A stretch of 33,501 bases of DNA, from assembly GCA_003697365.1 (NCBI GenBank), contig RFGP01000076.1, positions 1 to 33,501 on the forward strand, read 5' to 3'. The notes beneath the pieces were generated by a model. That model was given only the letters and a program-made list of their open reading frames with translations. It had not been told where the DNA came from and searched no databases. Shown here piece after piece: positions 6,424-31,479 of the stretch; within the stretch, counting starts at the first letter, position 1, and each line of letters starts with the position of its first letter. The DNA is from Chloroflexota bacterium. Lineage in GTDB: Bacteria > Chloroflexota > Anaerolineae > Aggregatilineales > J027. The position numbers and the translations under genes were made by a program.

Positions 6424-7395
6424 ATGCAAGCATTACTTGAACGCTGGCGTTCTCGATTACTTTTTGGCGTTTTACTGCTAACTTATGGCGAATTTGTGGG
6501 ATGGCAAACGCTCCCACAGAACAGTCTTCAAGATTGGGGAGCAATTCTTGTTATTTACATAGCAATCATGGGCGTGGTGCTAGATGTGTATGTACGATGG
6601 TATGTTGACGATACAATAAATACTTTATTGGCTGCTGGTATCTTTGGAATTTTGCATGGCACCATTATCTCTACTAACTTAGCGCGTAATCTGCCATTAA
6701 GCATTATCATTTTTGGTACGGCAACGCCTGCTCTTATGTTTTTACTAGCACACTATAGCTTTCGACTATTGTATAGTGCAGATAATCGATTTCGTTGGCT
6801 ATACTTTGTGCTTCCTTTCATTGGCTTAGTGCAGGGCATATGGACACGTTGGCTGCCCCAAACCAACACCGTAAATATTGATATACCTTCGTTATTCCAA
6901 ATACTCCTGCCTACACTATGCTTATTTATGTTTTGTGGAATTTTGCCCCTTTTACAACCAACACTACGCATCACACAGCTAGATTGGATGTTAACACCTT
7001 ATGAGGCCGCTCTATGCTTTGGAATATTAGGAGTAGCGATATTTTCACGCATAAATGAAGCGACATTAAATACATTTGCGCTTTTAGTTGGTGCGATATT
7101 GCTCCTAACTTTTGCTGGATTAGCACGCCTATATCAAACAACATTAACAACATCACTTAAATGGGAAATTCTTATCAAGCCTCAAAAGATATATATTGTA
7201 TATTGGTGGGTTGCATTTTTATTGTTTGGCATTGGTGCTGTTATAGGTTACAACTTGCCACAACATGGAACAGATTCTTTTCAAGCAACATTAATGGTAG
7301 GAGGACTGATCATTTTTGGTATGTTGTGGCCACCATTTGTATCTTTTTGGGTGAGTATGCAAGCCTTTATTGAACTAGGGAGACAGGAATTTTGA
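6424..7395 (+). CDS. Polytopic membrane protein of unknown function
   Basis: I do not recognise the family. The 323-residue product is strongly hydrophobic, with about nine or ten predicted membrane segments spread over its length and short charged loops (for example YVRWYVDD near residue 56). No transporter motif, metal-binding cluster or catalytic signature is visible. It starts 2 bases after the beta-repeat membrane protein and its last codons overlap the methyltransferase start, so the three genes are almost certainly co-transcribed and coupled. It may be a membrane partner of the upstream protein; that is inference from position only. Confidence 0.7.
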   Translation: MQALLERWRSRLLFGVLLLTYGEFVGWQTLPQNSLQDWGAILVIYIAIMGVVLDVYVRWYVDDTINTLLAAGIFGILHGTIISTNLARNLPLSIIIFGTATPALMFLLAHYSFRLLYSADNRFRWLYFVLPFIGLVQGIWTRWLPQTNTVNIDIPSLFQILLPTLCLFMFCGILPLLQPTLRITQLDWMLTPYEAALCFGILGVAIFSRINEATLNTFALLVGAILLLTFAGLARLYQTTLTTSLKWEILIKPQKIYIVYWWVAFLLFGIGAVIGYNLPQHGTDSFQATLMVGGLIIFGMLWPPFVSFWVSMQAFIELGRQEF

Positions 7396-8021
7396 GCGAA
7401 CTAGACGAATACTATCAAAAGATGCAAGCCAATCAGGGGTGGGTTATTATTTTAGAGAGTTTTGCACGTTTTATCGCTCCTCAACCTGAACAACTTGTAT
7501 TGGACATTGGCACTGGGCCGGGGGCGCTGGTTAATATCCTCGCCACTCAACATCAGGCACGAGTGTATGGTGTGGATTATAGTTTTCAATTGATGCGCTC
7601 TGCTCGATCCAACTATGCAAACTTGGGAACGGTTTTTGTAACAGGCGCATTGCCAACACTACCATTTGGCGATAACACTATTGACATAGCCACTGCTACA
7701 AACGTGCTGTACTTACTTGATGATCCACAATCTGCTGTGGTTGAAATTAGCCGTATTTTGAAACCTAATGGGCAATTAGTAATGCTTAATCCTTCTCCTA
7801 AAATGAGCGTTGCCTCAGCCACAGCTTTAGCAAACGAACGTAATTTGACAGGTTTTGAACGCGAAAATTTTATCGATTGGGGACAGATTGCTGAAGATCA
7901 TGTACGATGGTCTATAGAAGACATCAAAGCGCTTTTTGCTCCAGCAAATCTTGTGATTGACGAATGGCGTGAGCGCATTGGTGACGGTTTAGCATTATAT
8001 GTTCGCGGCATTAAACAATAA
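7392..8021 (+). CDS. Class I SAM-dependent methyltransferase
   Basis: The 209-residue product is a small UbiE/Methyltransf_11-type enzyme. Motif I, VLDIGTGPGAL (residues 36-46), is the SAM-binding glycine loop; the acidic residue ending strand 2 is in VYGVDYSF; motif IV-like residues are DIATATNVLYLL, and KPNGQLVMLNP forms the usual post-motif strand. The start is TTG, overlapping the previous stop by four bases, with GGAGACAGGA just upstream; an ATG choice would lose the N-terminal helix. The substrate cannot be read from sequence. Its place between membrane proteins and a GAF/kinase pair gives no metabolic clue. Confidence 0.85.
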   Translation: MSELDEYYQKMQANQGWVIILESFARFIAPQPEQLVLDIGTGPGALVNILATQHQARVYGVDYSFQLMRSARSNYANLGTVFVTGALPTLPFGDNTIDIATATNVLYLLDDPQSAVVEISRILKPNGQLVMLNPSPKMSVASATALANERNLTGFERENFIDWGQIAEDHVRWSIEDIKALFAPANLVIDEWRERIGDGLALYVRGIKQ

Positions 8022-8045
8022 TCATAAAATCACTGGGGGGCTTTT

Positions 8046-8642
8046 ATGTCACAAGATAAACGACTTCAAAATATTGACCGTATGATGAACGAAATTCGTG
8101 ATGCACTTTCTTGGACAAGCGAAGAGCGTGAAGTTAATGAATTAAAAGCATTGCAGTTGTTATTAGAAATTACACGTGAATTGCATGAACGCCATGAAAT
8201 TCATGAGCGCATTCAATTGATCTTAGATAGTGTGATTGCATTTGCAGATGCAGATCGTGCCTTCTTGATTCTCATAGATGATCAAGGTCAACAACGTTAT
8301 AAGATGGGGCGCGACAGTCAGGGGCAATTTATCAGCCATGAACAATTTACACCTTCACAGGGAGTTATCGAACGTACCTTAGAACGCAAAAGAACTTTGT
8401 TGGTTCCTGATGCTCAGATAGATAGCGAATTGAGCAAACGCCAAAGCATCCAAGAACTTCATTTGCGAACAATTATGTGTGCTCCCTTAAGCGTGCAAGA
8501 GAAAATTATTGGATTACTCTATGTCGATAGCCAGCATTCTCTAGGTCAATATTCTTCGGCACATGTTAACGTCATTGCGAGCTTAGCTGATCAAGCAGCT
8601 GTTGCAATACGCAACGCTGAGAAATTTGATACAAAGACATAA
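8046..8642 (+). CDS. GAF-domain sensor protein
   Basis: The 198-residue product has an N-terminal helical, probably coiled-coil segment (residues ~1-60) and one GAF domain (~50-192), with the conserved IMCAPLSVQEKIIGLLYVDS core near 143-162 and the closing helix ending in QAAVAIRNAE. GAF domains bind small ligands, or chromophores or iron, and control partner domains; no output domain is attached here. Cys145 lies in the core but no chromophore lyase motif is evident. A run of six G (8035-8040) is the likely ribosome-binding site. It lies 73 bases before the kinase-receiver fusion, so a sensor role for that kinase is a reasonable inference. Confidence 0.8.
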   Translation: MSQDKRLQNIDRMMNEIRDALSWTSEEREVNELKALQLLLEITRELHERHEIHERIQLILDSVIAFADADRAFLILIDDQGQQRYKMGRDSQGQFISHEQFTPSQGVIERTLERKRTLLVPDAQIDSELSKRQSIQELHLRTIMCAPLSVQEKIIGLLYVDSQHSLGQYSSAHVNVIASLADQAAVAIRNAEKFDTKT

Positions 8643-8701: not shown

Positions 8702-8715
8702 TTCATGAGGATGAT

Positions 8716-10233
8716 ATGATCGGGCAAACACTAAGTGGGCGTTACCGTATTGAAGCGTTTATCGGTGAGGGCGCAACAGCTATTGTGTATCGCGCTGTCG
8801 ATCTCCGTTTACAACGCCCTGTAGCGGTCAAAATTCTATTACCGCACGTTTCTGAAACTACACGCAAGCGATTTGAGCGTGAAGCCCATGCCGCAGCACG
8901 CCTCAATCATCCTAATATCATGGCTATCTATGACTTCGCAGAGGATAATGGTACTGAATATTTAGTGGTTGAGCTTATTGAAGGACGACCACTTTATGAA
9001 TTTATCCCCGCTGATCCCGAATTAGTTATTGAAGTTGGCTATCAAATTTGTGTAGCACTTGAATATGCTCACCAAATAGGACTCATTCACCGCGACATTA
9101 AACCTGCAAACATCAATCTCACCGCTGATAATCAGATTAAGCTAATGGATTTTGGGCTCGCTATCCCTAAACAAGGCGATCAAAAACGCCTCACGGCGAG
9201 TGGTACAATCATTGGCACCCCCGCATATCTTTCGCCAGAACAAGCACAAGGTCTCCCGCTTGATCCGCGTACAGATATTTATTCACTGGGCATTGTTCTA
9301 TACGAGATGGTGACAGGCTTGTTGCCATTTGATGCTGATGATGTTGGCACAATTTTGTTACAACAGGTCAAAAAACCACCTGAGCCGCCAAGCAAGCATA
9401 CGCCTAATATGCCTAAAGCATTAGAAGAGGTCATCCTAAAGGCATTGCAAAAGAAACCCTCGCAGCGATTCCAATCTGCTAAAGAAATGGGAGATGCTTT
9501 ATACGACATCAAACGCGGGTTTACATCATCCAGTTCTGAGAGCATTCATTCTGCACGTCAAACAGAATCTGAAGAAGCGAAAGAGCTGCGCCTTGTTTTA
9601 GCTGATGATCATGTGTTAACACGACAAAGCCTCGCCTACTTTTTAGATGACTTAGAGGGCATTACTGTTGTAGGACAAGCCTCTAACGGAGATGAAGCCT
9701 TTGAACTTGTAGGCGAATTACATCCAAATGTATTATTGCTTGATCTCAACATGCCCGGAACAAATGGGCTCGTCATCTTACCTAAGATTCGTAAGGCATA
9801 CCCAGATGTTAAAGTTTTGGTGTTGACAGGTCGCGAAGAAAATTCGCTGATTATGAATGCGTTGAGAGCAGGAGCACATGGCTATATCCTTAAAACAAGC
9901 TCTGAAAATGAGCTAGAACAAGCAGTCCGTGATGTTGCCAGTGGGCGTTTAGTCTTAGGGCAAGGAGTTGCTGAGAGCCTTGTGGGTGGTATGGTTAACC
10001 CTGTAAGTCAATCTAATGAAGTGCTTGATGCCATCCAAAAAGATATTCTTACACTTGTAGCAGCAGGGTTATCTGATAGTGACATTGCCCATCACATTGG
10101 AATGCCCGAAGCTGACATGCAAGCAACCCTAATGCAAGCAATTGATGCATTAGGGGTTTCATCACGCACAGATGCTGCGCTTGTTGCGTTGCGCTCTGGT
10201 CTAATCAGCATTGACGATGTGCAAAGACTTTGA
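8716..10233 (+). CDS. Ser/Thr kinase fused to receiver and LuxR-type HTH
   Basis: The 505-residue soluble protein joins three modules. Residues 10-268 are a Hanks-type kinase with all key residues: Gly loop GEGATAIV (17-24), Lys39 in VAVK, HRDIKPAN (125-132, Asp127), Asp145 in DFG, and SPEQ in place of APE. Residues ~291-412 are a NarL-like receiver with acidic DD at 297-298, phospho-acceptor Asp343 in DLNMPG, Thr371 and Lys393. Residues ~435-497 match the LuxR/NarL helix-turn-helix (LVAAGLSDSDIAHHIGM, LGVSSRTDAALVA) but the recognition helix lacks the usual TVKxH. I start at 8716 (GAGG 6 bases upstream) rather than at 8602, which would add 38 unlikely residues and overlap the GAF gene. It has no membrane segment. 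It should be a one-protein kinase-regulator; the wiring is inference. Confidence 0.9.
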   Translation: MIGQTLSGRYRIEAFIGEGATAIVYRAVDLRLQRPVAVKILLPHVSETTRKRFEREAHAAARLNHPNIMAIYDFAEDNGTEYLVVELIEGRPLYEFIPADPELVIEVGYQICVALEYAHQIGLIHRDIKPANINLTADNQIKLMDFGLAIPKQGDQKRLTASGTIIGTPAYLSPEQAQGLPLDPRTDIYSLGIVLYEMVTGLLPFDADDVGTILLQQVKKPPEPPSKHTPNMPKALEEVILKALQKKPSQRFQSAKEMGDALYDIKRGFTSSSSESIHSARQTESEEAKELRLVLADDHVLTRQSLAYFLDDLEGITVVGQASNGDEAFELVGELHPNVLLLDLNMPGTNGLVILPKIRKAYPDVKVLVLTGREENSLIMNALRAGAHGYILKTSSENELEQAVRDVASGRLVLGQGVAESLVGGMVNPVSQSNEVLDAIQKDILTLVAAGLSDSDIAHHIGMPEADMQATLMQAIDALGVSSRTDAALVALRSGLISIDDVQRL

Positions 10234-20658: not shown

Positions 20659-22041
20659 ATGAGCATTCGTTTACGTCTAACTTTGCTATATTCCAGTTTG
20701 TTAATAGCTATGCTGATTTTATTCAGTGTGGCTGTTTTTGGCATACTAGGCCATCTTTTACATTCCCAGATTGATGACGATTTAGTGGAAACGCTCGATG
20801 ACATTGAACGCATTATTCTTGAAAACCGAGATGCTGAAGGGCATATTCAAACGGAAGACTTACCCTTACGTCTATTTCATCCTGCTGACAACATGTATAT
20901 TCAACTTTGGCTGCCCAAAGAACTTGAGTTAATTAATCTCTCAAAAAATCTAGAAAGTTATACTGAGCATCTCGATCCCAACGCTGTCGGGCACAATCGT
21001 ACAGTTTTTTCTAATGTACGTGCAAATGGCGTTGATCTCCGTGTTGCGACTCGTCCACTTGTTGTAGATGGCCAAACAATGGGCTATTTACAAGTAGCTA
21101 CTTCTACTGAACCTATCGAAAATGCTATTCATAAACTCGCCATTATCCTAACGTTATTAGGCACTATTGGCGGCATCATCGCCTTTTTTGTTGGAAGGTG
21201 GATGGCTTCAAAAGCGCTCACGCCGATTAATAGCATCAATCAAACCGCACAGCAAATTGTGGCTGCTGATGACCTTAAGCGGCGAGTCCCTTACACAGGA
21301 AACGACGAGCTAGGTGCACTAACAGAAACAATTAATCGTATGCTAGAGCGATTAGATCGGTTGTTCTCATCTCAACAGCAATTTGTATCAGATGTTTCGC
21401 ATGAACTGCGCACACCACTTGCGGCAATTCAAGGCCATGTCGAAATCATTCAGCGCTTTGGCTATGATGAAGAATCTATGGAAGCCATCGCTCGCTCTAC
21501 AGAACGCATGGTCTACCTTGTAGAAGACCTGATGTTCTTAGCAAACGCGGATATTGGCCGAGTGAACCTAATCTTAATGCCTGTAGACTTGGATACACTA
21601 CTGCTAGAAGTTTATAATCATGTGAAAGCATTTAATAAAGAACAAGTTGCTATCTACCTTCAAAATATTGAACATATTCAAGTAAATGCCGATCCGCATT
21701 TATTGAAAAAGTTATTAAAACACTTGCTAATGAATGCCATTGCTTATACGGATAAAACTGGTCAAATTACACTTGACTTACGACAACATGACCAATGGGT
21801 AGATGTGATTGTAAGTGATACAGGGATTGGCATAGCAGAAGAAGACCTTGCGCGCATTTTTTACCGATTCTATCGGGCCGATAAAGCACGTTCACGCCTT
21901 AGTGGTGGTAGCGGTCTAGGGCTTTCCATCGCATTATGGATTGCCAGAGCACATGGCGGCGATTTATTAGTGGAAAGCCAATTAGGGCATGGCACTACCT
22001 TTACAGTACGTTTGCCACACACTTCCTCTATGCGTTCCTAA
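20659..22041 (+). CDS. HisKA sensor histidine kinase
   Basis: The 460-residue membrane kinase has a first membrane segment (8-31), an outside sensor region (~32-158), a second segment (160-178), a HAMP linker (180-233), and a HisKA/HATPase core. Phospho-acceptor is His248 in VSHELRTPL; the N box holds Asn359, the G1 box DTGIGIA starts at Asp387, and the G2 box GSGLGLS is near 417-423. It should phosphorylate the upstream OmpR-type regulator. An in-frame TAG lies six codons before the ATG, which fixes the start to within a few codons; AAGGATAGGCGAG is the likely but distant ribosome-binding site. The sensor region has no recognisable ligand domain. Confidence 0.95.
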   Translation: MSIRLRLTLLYSSLLIAMLILFSVAVFGILGHLLHSQIDDDLVETLDDIERIILENRDAEGHIQTEDLPLRLFHPADNMYIQLWLPKELELINLSKNLESYTEHLDPNAVGHNRTVFSNVRANGVDLRVATRPLVVDGQTMGYLQVATSTEPIENAIHKLAIILTLLGTIGGIIAFFVGRWMASKALTPINSINQTAQQIVAADDLKRRVPYTGNDELGALTETINRMLERLDRLFSSQQQFVSDVSHELRTPLAAIQGHVEIIQRFGYDEESMEAIARSTERMVYLVEDLMFLANADIGRVNLILMPVDLDTLLLEVYNHVKAFNKEQVAIYLQNIEHIQVNADPHLLKKLLKHLLMNAIAYTDKTGQITLDLRQHDQWVDVIVSDTGIGIAEEDLARIFYRFYRADKARSRLSGGSGLGLSIALWIARAHGGDLLVESQLGHGTTFTVRLPHTSSMRS

Positions 22042-28817: not shown

Positions 28818-29945
28818 ATGAGTGGCATTCCTCGTATTCTAGTGGTCGATGCAAATAATCATCTTGGGCATGTTGTACGTGCTTCTATGTTTTTGCTTGA
28901 TCGTCAATATGTGTTAGTAGAAATTCCTACCGCCAAAGAGGCCTTATCCGAAGTCATAGATACAGCGATTAATCTTGCTGTTGTCACCTATGATCTGGAC
29001 GGTAGTATGAATGGTTTAGAGTGGGCTACTCGTGCCATTCGTCAGCGCGCAGGTGCACGAATTATCGTAGTTGCCGATGATCATGATCCAAAACCCGATG
29101 CCATGTTGCTAGAAAGCCAAAACTTCCAATATATCCCCTATTCTTCTGGGGAACAATTTTTGCGTGCCCTCCGCATTGGATTAGATGGCCCAGAAGTGGT
29201 TGCTGCTGAAGAAGCCTCGAAAGAATCTGCTGCTGCCCCGCTAGATTTAGGGCCTGTACCTAAGATTAATATTGATCGCTCACGTGCTATCTTACTAGGT
29301 GCTATTCGTGAAATCGGAGCTCTCGGTATAGGTGTGTTAGGGGGATTAATCGCAGATCGTGCAGGACGTATCATCGTCGACGAAGGGGCAACAAGTCAAA
29401 TAGACAAAGAACAAGTAACCCCCTTGCTGGGTCCCTCATTTGCACAAGCGATTCGTATGTCGCCGCACTTAGGCGGCAACAGCTGGCTTATGAAGTTCTA
29501 TGAAGGGGATGACTACCAGTTATTTGCGCTCTCAGCAGGCTATCATTATTTTATGATGTTGCTAGTGACACCTAGTCGCGGTGCATTAGGTGCAGTCATG
29601 CGTTATGGCCGCCAAGCTGCTCGTGATTTGTCAGAATTACTTGGCAATGAAGCATGGGAATATAAAGAAGCGCAAGCCACAGCAACCCAAACGATGATTG
29701 CAGCCCCCATAGCCGAGCCAGAGCCAGAACCTATTCCTACGCCCGAAGAAATTACATCTAAACTAATGGCCCCAACCTTAGAACCCGTTGGCGATCTTGA
29801 CATCGATGCATTATTTGCCACTGCTGAACAAGTTGAAGATTTTGACTTATTTGATGCAGAAGATAGCTCAGGAATAAGCGATCTTCTAGATGATGGCACT
29901 ATCAGTTTTGAAGAAGCGCGTAATATGGGGTTATTAGGCGACTAA
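28818..29945 (+). CDS. Pseudo-receiver fused to a roadblock/LC7-like domain
   Basis: The 375-residue protein starts with a receiver-like domain (residues 5-123): RILVVDANN holds one acidic residue, Asp59 sits at the phospho-acceptor place (AVVTYDLDG), but the conserved Lys is absent (YIPYSS near 105-110), so it is probably not a normal response regulator. Residues ~150-276 resemble a roadblock/LC7 (MglB-like) domain, with DRSRAILLGAIREIG, VLGGLIADRAGRII and YHYFMMLLVTPSRGALG. A Pro/Glu-rich linker and an acidic tail follow, ending FEEARNMGLLGD. Roadblock proteins often regulate small GTPases; no GTPase gene is in view. AGGTGA precedes the ATG. It is 43 bases before the membrane kinase, so co-expression is likely. 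Confidence 0.75.
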   Translation: MSGIPRILVVDANNHLGHVVRASMFLLDRQYVLVEIPTAKEALSEVIDTAINLAVVTYDLDGSMNGLEWATRAIRQRAGARIIVVADDHDPKPDAMLLESQNFQYIPYSSGEQFLRALRIGLDGPEVVAAEEASKESAAAPLDLGPVPKINIDRSRAILLGAIREIGALGIGVLGGLIADRAGRIIVDEGATSQIDKEQVTPLLGPSFAQAIRMSPHLGGNSWLMKFYEGDDYQLFALSAGYHYFMMLLVTPSRGALGAVMRYGRQAARDLSELLGNEAWEYKEAQATATQTMIAAPIAEPEPEPIPTPEEITSKLMAPTLEPVGDLDIDALFATAEQVEDFDLFDAEDSSGISDLLDDGTISFEEARNMGLLGD

Positions 29946-29988
29946 AATTAGTCTAGATTGAGCATAAAACACGCCGAGGTCAAATGGC

Positions 29989-31479
29989 ATGTCAGATCAT
30001 CATGATGATCCGATGATTGGTAAAGTAATCGGAAAAGGTTATCGCATAGAACGCCTTATTGGAAAAGGCGGAATGTCTTATGTCTATAAGGCCATAGATA
30101 CAAATGACGATCGAGAAGTTGCGGTAAAAGTAATTACTTTGCATCGTGATCGCGCAAAAGAACTTGAAAAGCGTTTTTATCGTGAAACTCGTATCATGCA
30201 AACGCTGCAGGGTCACGAAAATATCATTAGTATCTATGAATCAGGAGAGATAGATCGCGAGACCTATTACCTAGCAATGGAGCTTATTCGTGGCGAAACC
30301 CTCACCCAACGGATTAAGCGCTATAAAAATACCAACAGTTATATGCCGTTTGAAGAGATCATTCATGTGATGCGCCAAGTTGGTGCCGCACTTGATTATA
30401 TGCACGGCAAGAAAATTATTCATCGTGATCTCAAACCTTCTAACATCATGATTGAAAAAGGTACTGAGCGCGCCGTACTTATGGATTTCGGTTTAGTGAT
30501 GGAAGACTCCGAAAACAATAGCACAATGGGCACGGCTTTTGGTACCCCGCGCTACATCGCTCCAGAACAAGCTATCTCTTCACAACAAGCTGGGCCCCAA
30601 AGCGATCAATATTCGTTGGGCGTTATCATTTATGAATGCCTAACAAACCAAACCCCATTTGATGAAGAATCAGCTATGAGCATGGCATTAAGCCATATTA
30701 CCAATGAACCACCTGATTTACGCGACTTTCGCCCAGATTTACCAGAACCCGTTGTAAAGGTAGTGCTTAAAACACTTGAAAAATCCCCCAGTGATCGTTA
30801 CCCCAATATAAAGGCATTTATTGATGCCCTAGAAGCGAGTATGTTTGGCTGGGTCTCAGAGACTGTGGTTGTGTCTGGTGATGCGGAAGAAGATACACAA
30901 CGCCCTGAGCCTGCACAAGAATTGCCGGAAGACTGGCACGCTACCCCTTCTCAAGAAAGTCTTTTGACTGGAGAGCATCCAAAACTAACATCTTCTACTT
31001 CAACACGTAAAATGCCTCTCTATGTAGGTATAGGAGCAGTAGTGCTAATTCTAGGTATTGCGTTGTTTGCTATACTGGGAAGCAACAGCAACAGTCGTGC
31101 TGATAATGGAGCAGAGTTACACTTTTTCTACAATAATACCAATTTGACCATTTACAACGCCTCTGGGGGGCGGGTTGATCTAACCAACTACCAATTAACT
31201 ACCCTTGATGACGCTCATACTCTTGACATGAGTAAATTTGCTAATCCTATTATTGAAGATGGGGAATGTGTAGTTGTCTCTTTAGAAATGAACACTCCAC
31301 CATTAATAACAAACTGTGCCCGCACCTTTAACGAACGGCATACCCGAAAAGTCATTGAAAGTTATTATTGGGTGTGGGATAGTAGCATCAACACAAGTGG
31401 GCGGTTTTCAGTGGTGTATCGTGGACGCAAAGTTAAAAGTTGCAATATTACCGACGGAGAATGTCGGGCTGGGGGATAG
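29989..31479 (+). CDS. Membrane Ser/Thr protein kinase (Hanks type)
   Basis: The 496-residue protein has a complete kinase domain (residues 18-285): GKGGMSYV loop (25-32), Lys47 in VAVK, HRDLKPSN (145-152, Asp147), Asp166 in DFG and APEQ (191-194). A Pro/Ser/Thr-rich juxtamembrane segment (~295-340) and one membrane helix (343-364) follow. The C-terminal ~125 residues lie outside and resemble a small beta domain of the lamin-tail kind (LHFFYNNTNLTIYNASGG, DLTNYQLTT), with four cysteines. PASTA repeats are absent. It should sense something outside through that domain. The downstream GNAT gene begins one base after its stop. Confidence 0.93.
   Translation: MSDHHDDPMIGKVIGKGYRIERLIGKGGMSYVYKAIDTNDDREVAVKVITLHRDRAKELEKRFYRETRIMQTLQGHENIISIYESGEIDRETYYLAMELIRGETLTQRIKRYKNTNSYMPFEEIIHVMRQVGAALDYMHGKKIIHRDLKPSNIMIEKGTERAVLMDFGLVMEDSENNSTMGTAFGTPRYIAPEQAISSQQAGPQSDQYSLGVIIYECLTNQTPFDEESAMSMALSHITNEPPDLRDFRPDLPEPVVKVVLKTLEKSPSDRYPNIKAFIDALEASMFGWVSETVVVSGDAEEDTQRPEPAQELPEDWHATPSQESLLTGEHPKLTSSTSTRKMPLYVGIGAVVLILGIALFAILGSNSNSRADNGAELHFFYNNTNLTIYNASGGRVDLTNYQLTTLDDAHTLDMSKFANPIIEDGECVVVSLEMNTPPLITNCARTFNERHTRKVIESYYWVWDSSINTSGRFSVVYRGRKVKSCNITDGECRAGG

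Follow-up and report, generated by a model that had tools for sequence, protein, structure and literature searches.

The window, the 33,501-nucleotide stretch of contig RFGP01000076.1 (assembly GCA_003697365.1, Chloroflexota bacterium) analysed here, carries a gene in which a Hanks-type Ser/Thr kinase, a receiver and a NarL-type helix-turn-helix (HTH) fold follow one another in a single protein (Table 1). The frame is open throughout from the ATG at 8716 to the TGA at 10233 and encodes 505 amino acids, a GAGG at 8708-8711 just 5' of the ATG is the likely ribosome-binding site, and the start MIGxxLxxRY is common to most orthologues. An earlier note, made from the sequence alone, had described kinase, receiver and HTH in one frame; the uninterrupted reading frame and the Pfam domains agree with it, and all six residues that it singled out (K39, D127, D145, D343, T371 and K393) are correctly placed. 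No transmembrane segment or signal sequence was evident by eye in the 505-aa protein, and a full-length model predicted from the single sequence was not confident (pLDDT 41.7).

Table 1. Features of the kinase-receiver-HTH gene and its upstream neighbour (window coordinates; residues are those of the 505-aa protein)
Feature	Coordinates	Strand	Remarks
GAF-domain protein	8046..8642	+	directly upstream of the fusion gene, 73 bp gap
Kinase-receiver-HTH gene	8716..10233	+	505 aa, ATG start
Hanks-type Ser/Thr kinase domain, residues 10-254	8743..9477	+	Pfam PF00069, E 3.6e-49
T160, activation-loop Thr	9193..9195	+	invariant in 33-row alignment; aligns with PknB activation-loop Thr
Hypervariable kinase-receiver linker, residues 263-290	9502..9585	+	13% mean pairwise identity
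Receiver (REC), residues 294-405	9595..9930	+	Pfam PF00072, E 2.1e-26; D297, D298, D343, T371, K393
D343, predicted phosphoacceptor Asp	9742..9744	+	invariant in 41/41
T394, candidate Ser/Thr phosphosite	9895..9897	+	directly after K393; conservation; equals VraR T106
NarL/GerE-type HTH fold and C-terminal helix, residues 437-505	10024..10230	+	acidic, without TVKxH

Upstream of the fusion gene (6424-8642) lie genes for a membrane protein, a methyltransferase and the GAF protein, and this four-gene cluster is conserved in seven loci, all of family f1. The GAF protein is a possible input partner, kept beside the fusion gene only in those seven f1 loci, and no conserved operon partner was found across the order. 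A canonical two-component pair would have an adjacent histidine kinase gene, and none was found next to the fusion gene at any of 41 loci; histidine kinase-like ORFs occur within 8 kb at seven of them, none adjacent, two further matches being the GAF protein itself. The nearest histidine kinase gene of the window (20659-22041) comes after an OmpR-type regulator of its own. The protein of this family is an orphan response regulator.

Exactly one copy of the gene (E<=1e-100) is present in 93 of the 154 genomes of the order, most matches covering residues 1-503 in one frame and with no stops, and matches at E<=1e-80 occur in 42 of 61 close genomes, never more than one in each. Within these 61 none of the f3, f6 and f7 genomes gave a match, and neither did some f2 genomes with few kinase or receiver candidates overall. 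A class-wide search (298 genomes) returned matches only within the order, apart from one locus at 40% identity (L096 in genome G062), while in its own genome no other protein matching both halves was found, the contig scan giving only kinase or receiver relatives. In the kinase tree and in the receiver-HTH tree alike the family groups as a single clade (SH-aLRT 99 and 98, respectively), and its major subdivisions agree between the two trees. Judged from these sequence comparisons, the fusion gene is real, old, single-copy and vertically inherited, with both catalytic centres kept.

The kinase domain has its nearest solved relative in PknB of Mycobacterium tuberculosis (best PDB match, E 2.8e-59), and it carries the VAIK Lys (K39), HRD Asp (D127), DFG Asp (D145) and PF00069 profile score of a Hanks-type kinase. 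These three residues are invariant in all 41 aligned copies, in line with the intact kinase reported by the earlier note, and T168 is likewise invariant where aligned (41 copies). With a mean pairwise identity of 0.64, the kinase is the best-conserved domain of the protein. The PknB residue matching T160 is, we take it, Thr171. A PASTA kinase is not indicated, as the PknB/Stk1 equivalog NF033483 reached 331.8 bits, from the kinase half only, against more than 450 for the whole protein, and PASTA repeats gave no Pfam match in the 505-aa protein.

The receiver possesses the acidic pair, the phosphoacceptor Asp, the Thr/Ser and the Lys that characterize such domains, and its mean pairwise identity is 0.59. 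Like D343, D298 and K393 are invariant where aligned (41 copies), and T371 is replaced once, by Ser, which bears out the description of this domain as intact. Outside the kinase, only T371 and T394 are Ser/Thr positions conserved in more than 80% of copies. T371 is catalytic and present in every receiver compared, whereas Ser or Thr at 394 occurs in 28 of 29 non-redundant copies versus 2 of 21 non-redundant stand-alone NarL regulators from the same order (Fisher value 1e-10, which overstates the enrichment because the sequences compared are related). In a HMMER alignment with 7ve6, K393-T394 pairs with VraR residues 105-106, and a review (PMC4601284) names VraR T106 among the sites phosphorylated by Stk1. 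The conservation of T394 may instead reflect descent or receiver mechanics, with the enrichment going back to a single ancestral event. In addition, the independent fusions described below read KD, KG and KS here, with no Thr, which counts against T394 as a phosphosite.

It had been proposed that the kinase might phosphorylate its own receiver or linker. For the receiver this is plausible, since T394 is the sole non-catalytic conserved Ser/Thr and aligns with VraR T106. The linker does not hold up as a conserved phosphosite, as its mean identity is 13% and no conserved Ser/Thr was found in residues 263-290 among the aligned copies. We know of no precedent for phosphotransfer from a Hanks kinase to Asp, as would be needed at Asp343, and it would be contrary to known Hanks chemistry. 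The linker and direct phosphorylation of Asp343 are, accordingly, poor candidates for the kinase target. A DosR-type site was rejected as well: T485, which from the 3c3w alignment we take to be the equivalent of DosR T198, is Ser or Thr in only 22 of 41 copies, and Thr is also frequent there in controls.

The GerE match in the C-terminal domain (residues 441-491, E 0.086) scores 12.9 bits against a curated cut-off of 23.5, so the 505-aa protein stays below the profile threshold of the NarL/FixJ class, although GerE is found at E<=0.1 in all 33 family members (best 2.1e-11). The other mark of that class, a receiver followed by a GerE-type four-helix HTH fold, is present by three lines of evidence. 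First, NarL (1a04) aligns with both domains of the receiver-HTH half at E 3.7e-29, and the match of this half to VraR lies at about 1e-24. Second, AlphaFold2, run on this half with a small homologue alignment, predicted five beta-alpha units and NarL-type helices at a mean pLDDT of 89.8. Third, Foldseek matched the predicted model to LiaR (E 9.5e-20), ChrA, VraR and RcsB.

However, a TV[KR]-type recognition helix is absent from all 40 copies that reach the HTH, as the earlier note had seen for TVKxH in one: the Thr and the basic residue are missing, their positions often being taken by Asp, Glu, Ala or Ile. By contrast, T(V/I)(K/R/D) is present in 28 of 28 comparison HTHs (TVD in a few), namely 26 stand-alone proteins and the independent fusions L096 and L098; most were drawn from top GerE matches and so lean canonical, but the five from the same genome are its full set over the GerE cut-off. 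The mean net charge of the HTH is -2.05 in the family versus +2.77 in the 26 controls, and among pairs whose receivers are 0.5-0.6 identical, HTH identity amounts to 0.43 in the family versus 0.66 in controls (ordinary NarL regulators). Between copies the HTH has a mean pairwise identity of 0.47, which falls to 0.32 in the recognition helix. Nevertheless, omega of the HTH between close relatives is 0-0.13, similar to that of kinase and receiver, and such strong purifying selection means that the domain still does something and rejects a decaying relic. The HTH looks repurposed, not decayed, and is kept for a role differing between lineages. The divergence, acidity and missing canonical contacts point away from canonical NarL-type DNA reading. 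The earlier suggestion that DNA binding may have been lost is too strong: the domain, though acidic and stripped of the canonical contacts, remains under strong purifying selection.

Further fusions were sought by a profile search over the phylum and by a plasmid search, so that their count is a lower bound. Three other proteins have the same kinase-receiver-GerE order and are 31-40% identical to the family protein: L096, from the same class but outside the order; WP_341472197.1 of Candidatus Chlorohelix allophototropha (L098, L213); and the plasmid-borne WP_241031924.1 of Rhodococcus koreensis (NZ_CP070611.1, L214 2995-5681). One common origin of the family, L096 and the Chlorohelix protein was rejected (AU p 0.017, from a quick tree), and L096 clusters, by its receiver-HTH half, with a stand-alone regulator. 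The match to the Chlorohelix protein also assigns the window to the phylum Chloroflexota. Either half of the Rhodococcus protein has its own stand-alone relatives on other plasmids of actinobacteria (roughly 53-67% identity), so this fusion looks recent; its HRD motif reads PRD. The kinase-receiver-GerE fusion arose separately at least three more times, at least four in all. The exact N-terminus of L096 is uncertain, as the stretch ahead of its glycine loop, which includes a run of C, showed no in-frame ATG, GTG or TTG.

The three proteins also differ from the family in recognition helix and gene neighbours. Their recognition helices contain EGTVKNH, PKTVRNQ and TVDTVNAY and are of TV type, and a same-strand gene with a histidine kinase-type ATPase domain adjoins each of them: a HisKA_3/HATPase gene immediately precedes L096 and the Chlorohelix gene, and a gene for a HATPase_c protein immediately follows the Rhodococcus fusion. 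In Chlorohelix (L213 1-5599, on the 241-kb replicon NZ_CP128402.1), this neighbour is a large PD40-repeat histidine kinase lying about 45 bp upstream. The receiver of such fusions is thus plausibly under histidine kinase control, and the bypass of a histidine kinase that the earlier note envisaged is not implied. The same note's premise that Ser/Thr kinases and response regulators are normally separate proteins holds as a rule, but such fusions recur.

Another Chloroflexota family joins an N-terminal Hanks kinase to a receiver of a different subtype, with an HD-GYP-like output in place of the HTH (L099, L102 and others). Its HD-GYP-type members L099, L100, L102, L103, L105, L106, L107, L108 and L118 have about 615 aa and belong to family f79, in another class. 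Possibly, they place cyclic-di-GMP breakdown under Hanks-kinase control.

Cross-talk in trans between Hanks kinases and two-component systems is on record for a few regulators, and it is often debated whether such contacts are physiologically wired or incidental. A close likeness is the action of Stk1/PknB on VraR in Staphylococcus aureus, where a Hanks kinase modifies a NarL-type regulator at the residue aligned with T394; there, however, two separate proteins act in trans, and VraR keeps TVKTH and binds DNA, whereas the Thr residues of this motif are absent here. In M. tuberculosis, the NarL-type regulator DosR/DevR receives both Ser/Thr phosphorylation, by PknH, and Asp phosphorylation (PMC4601284), but again the proteins are separate and the action is in trans. 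HstK-type proteins of cyanobacteria (cited in PMC1262709) combine a Ser/Thr kinase and a histidine kinase, so that a single chain unites a Hanks kinase with a two-component module, although the partner is a sensor kinase and not a response regulator. Besides the KdpD tandem kinase, a 2025 review (PMC12471899) lists only kinases that are separate from the regulators on which they act. Our literature search, which reached few subscription papers, found no characterised fusion of a Hanks kinase with a response regulator. The parts and their in-trans relation are already known.

We tentatively favour, at somewhat less than even chances, a dual-input orphan response regulator in which the kinase modifies its own receiver and the HTH gives a non-canonical output. 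The protein would dimerise, and the kinase would activate itself by phosphorylating T160, as PknB-type kinases do. It would then phosphorylate T394, in the beta5-alpha5 loop of the receiver, either within the same chain or across the dimer, and the phosphate might alter receiver dimerisation or the response to phosphorylation of Asp343. The phosphate on Asp343 would have a source of its own, either a small phosphodonor or a histidine kinase whose gene lies elsewhere. For its output the protein would use the HTH fold as a protein-protein or dimerisation module, or would touch DNA with it in a non-standard way; canonical NarL-type reading would play no part. If so, the fusion fixes in one chain a contact known in trans for VraR/Stk1 and DosR/PknH. 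A bolder claim, that the family is a new, order-wide class of response regulators with a Hanks kinase acting in cis on its own receiver and an HTH fold switched to protein-level output, appears doubtful.

Nearly as good an explanation is that the kinase is the output, although we consider it rather unlikely in itself. A histidine kinase or acetyl phosphate would charge Asp343, the receiver would dimerise, and the kinases thus paired would phosphorylate other proteins, the HTH aiding dimerisation only. The conservation of the kinase above all other domains fits this, as does an acidic HTH without canonical DNA contacts, and the kinase-receiver-HD-GYP proteins show that the receivers fused to kinases can carry outputs of very different kinds. 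However, an N-terminal position is the usual place of an input domain, and the three independent fusions, with their TV-type helices and adjacent histidine kinase or histidine kinase-type ATPase genes, fit a DNA-binding output.

It is improbable that the protein is still a transcription factor with lineage-specific DNA binding, its recognition helix co-evolving with the operators while kinase and receiver tune the binding. Such a factor would explain why the HTH fold is retained and why the independent fusions keep helices of the TVKNH, TVRNQ and TVDTV type, and purifying selection in close pairs, together with divergence of the recognition helix between genera (0.32), resembles rewiring; the replaced Thr and Lys/Arg positions, often now Asp, Glu, Ala or Ile, and the net acidic domain speak against it. 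An accidental fusion, in which two signalling modules are co-translated without functional cross-talk, could account for the hypervariable linker (0.13 identity), but the gene is retained in single copy across the order, its two halves show congruent conservation and independent fusions recur in the same domain order, which makes an accident very unlikely. The frameshift or assembly error near 9560 that the earlier note had named as a danger to its reading is refuted to the point of being negligible, because orthologues from dozens of independent assemblies cross the same junction in one frame with no stops, and nothing was found in its favour.

Retention as a single copy across the order, together with at least four origins, argues that the contact between kinase and regulator is selected for. 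If the bolder claim above is true, Ser/Thr and His-Asp signalling would be integrated within a single protein. The fusion is a stoichiometric in-cis system whose kinase-regulator contact is open to measurement through point mutations at just two residues, K39 and D343, which makes the family a natural place to test the wiring between the two main bacterial signalling systems, and its HTH offers a DNA-binding fold held under selection after the loss of canonical DNA contacts.

Finally, at 28818-31479 the window also encodes a 375-aa protein without a Pfam match, whose N-terminus resembles a diverged receiver. Directly behind it lies the gene of a second Hanks kinase (29989-31479), in which a hydrophobic stretch follows the kinase domain.
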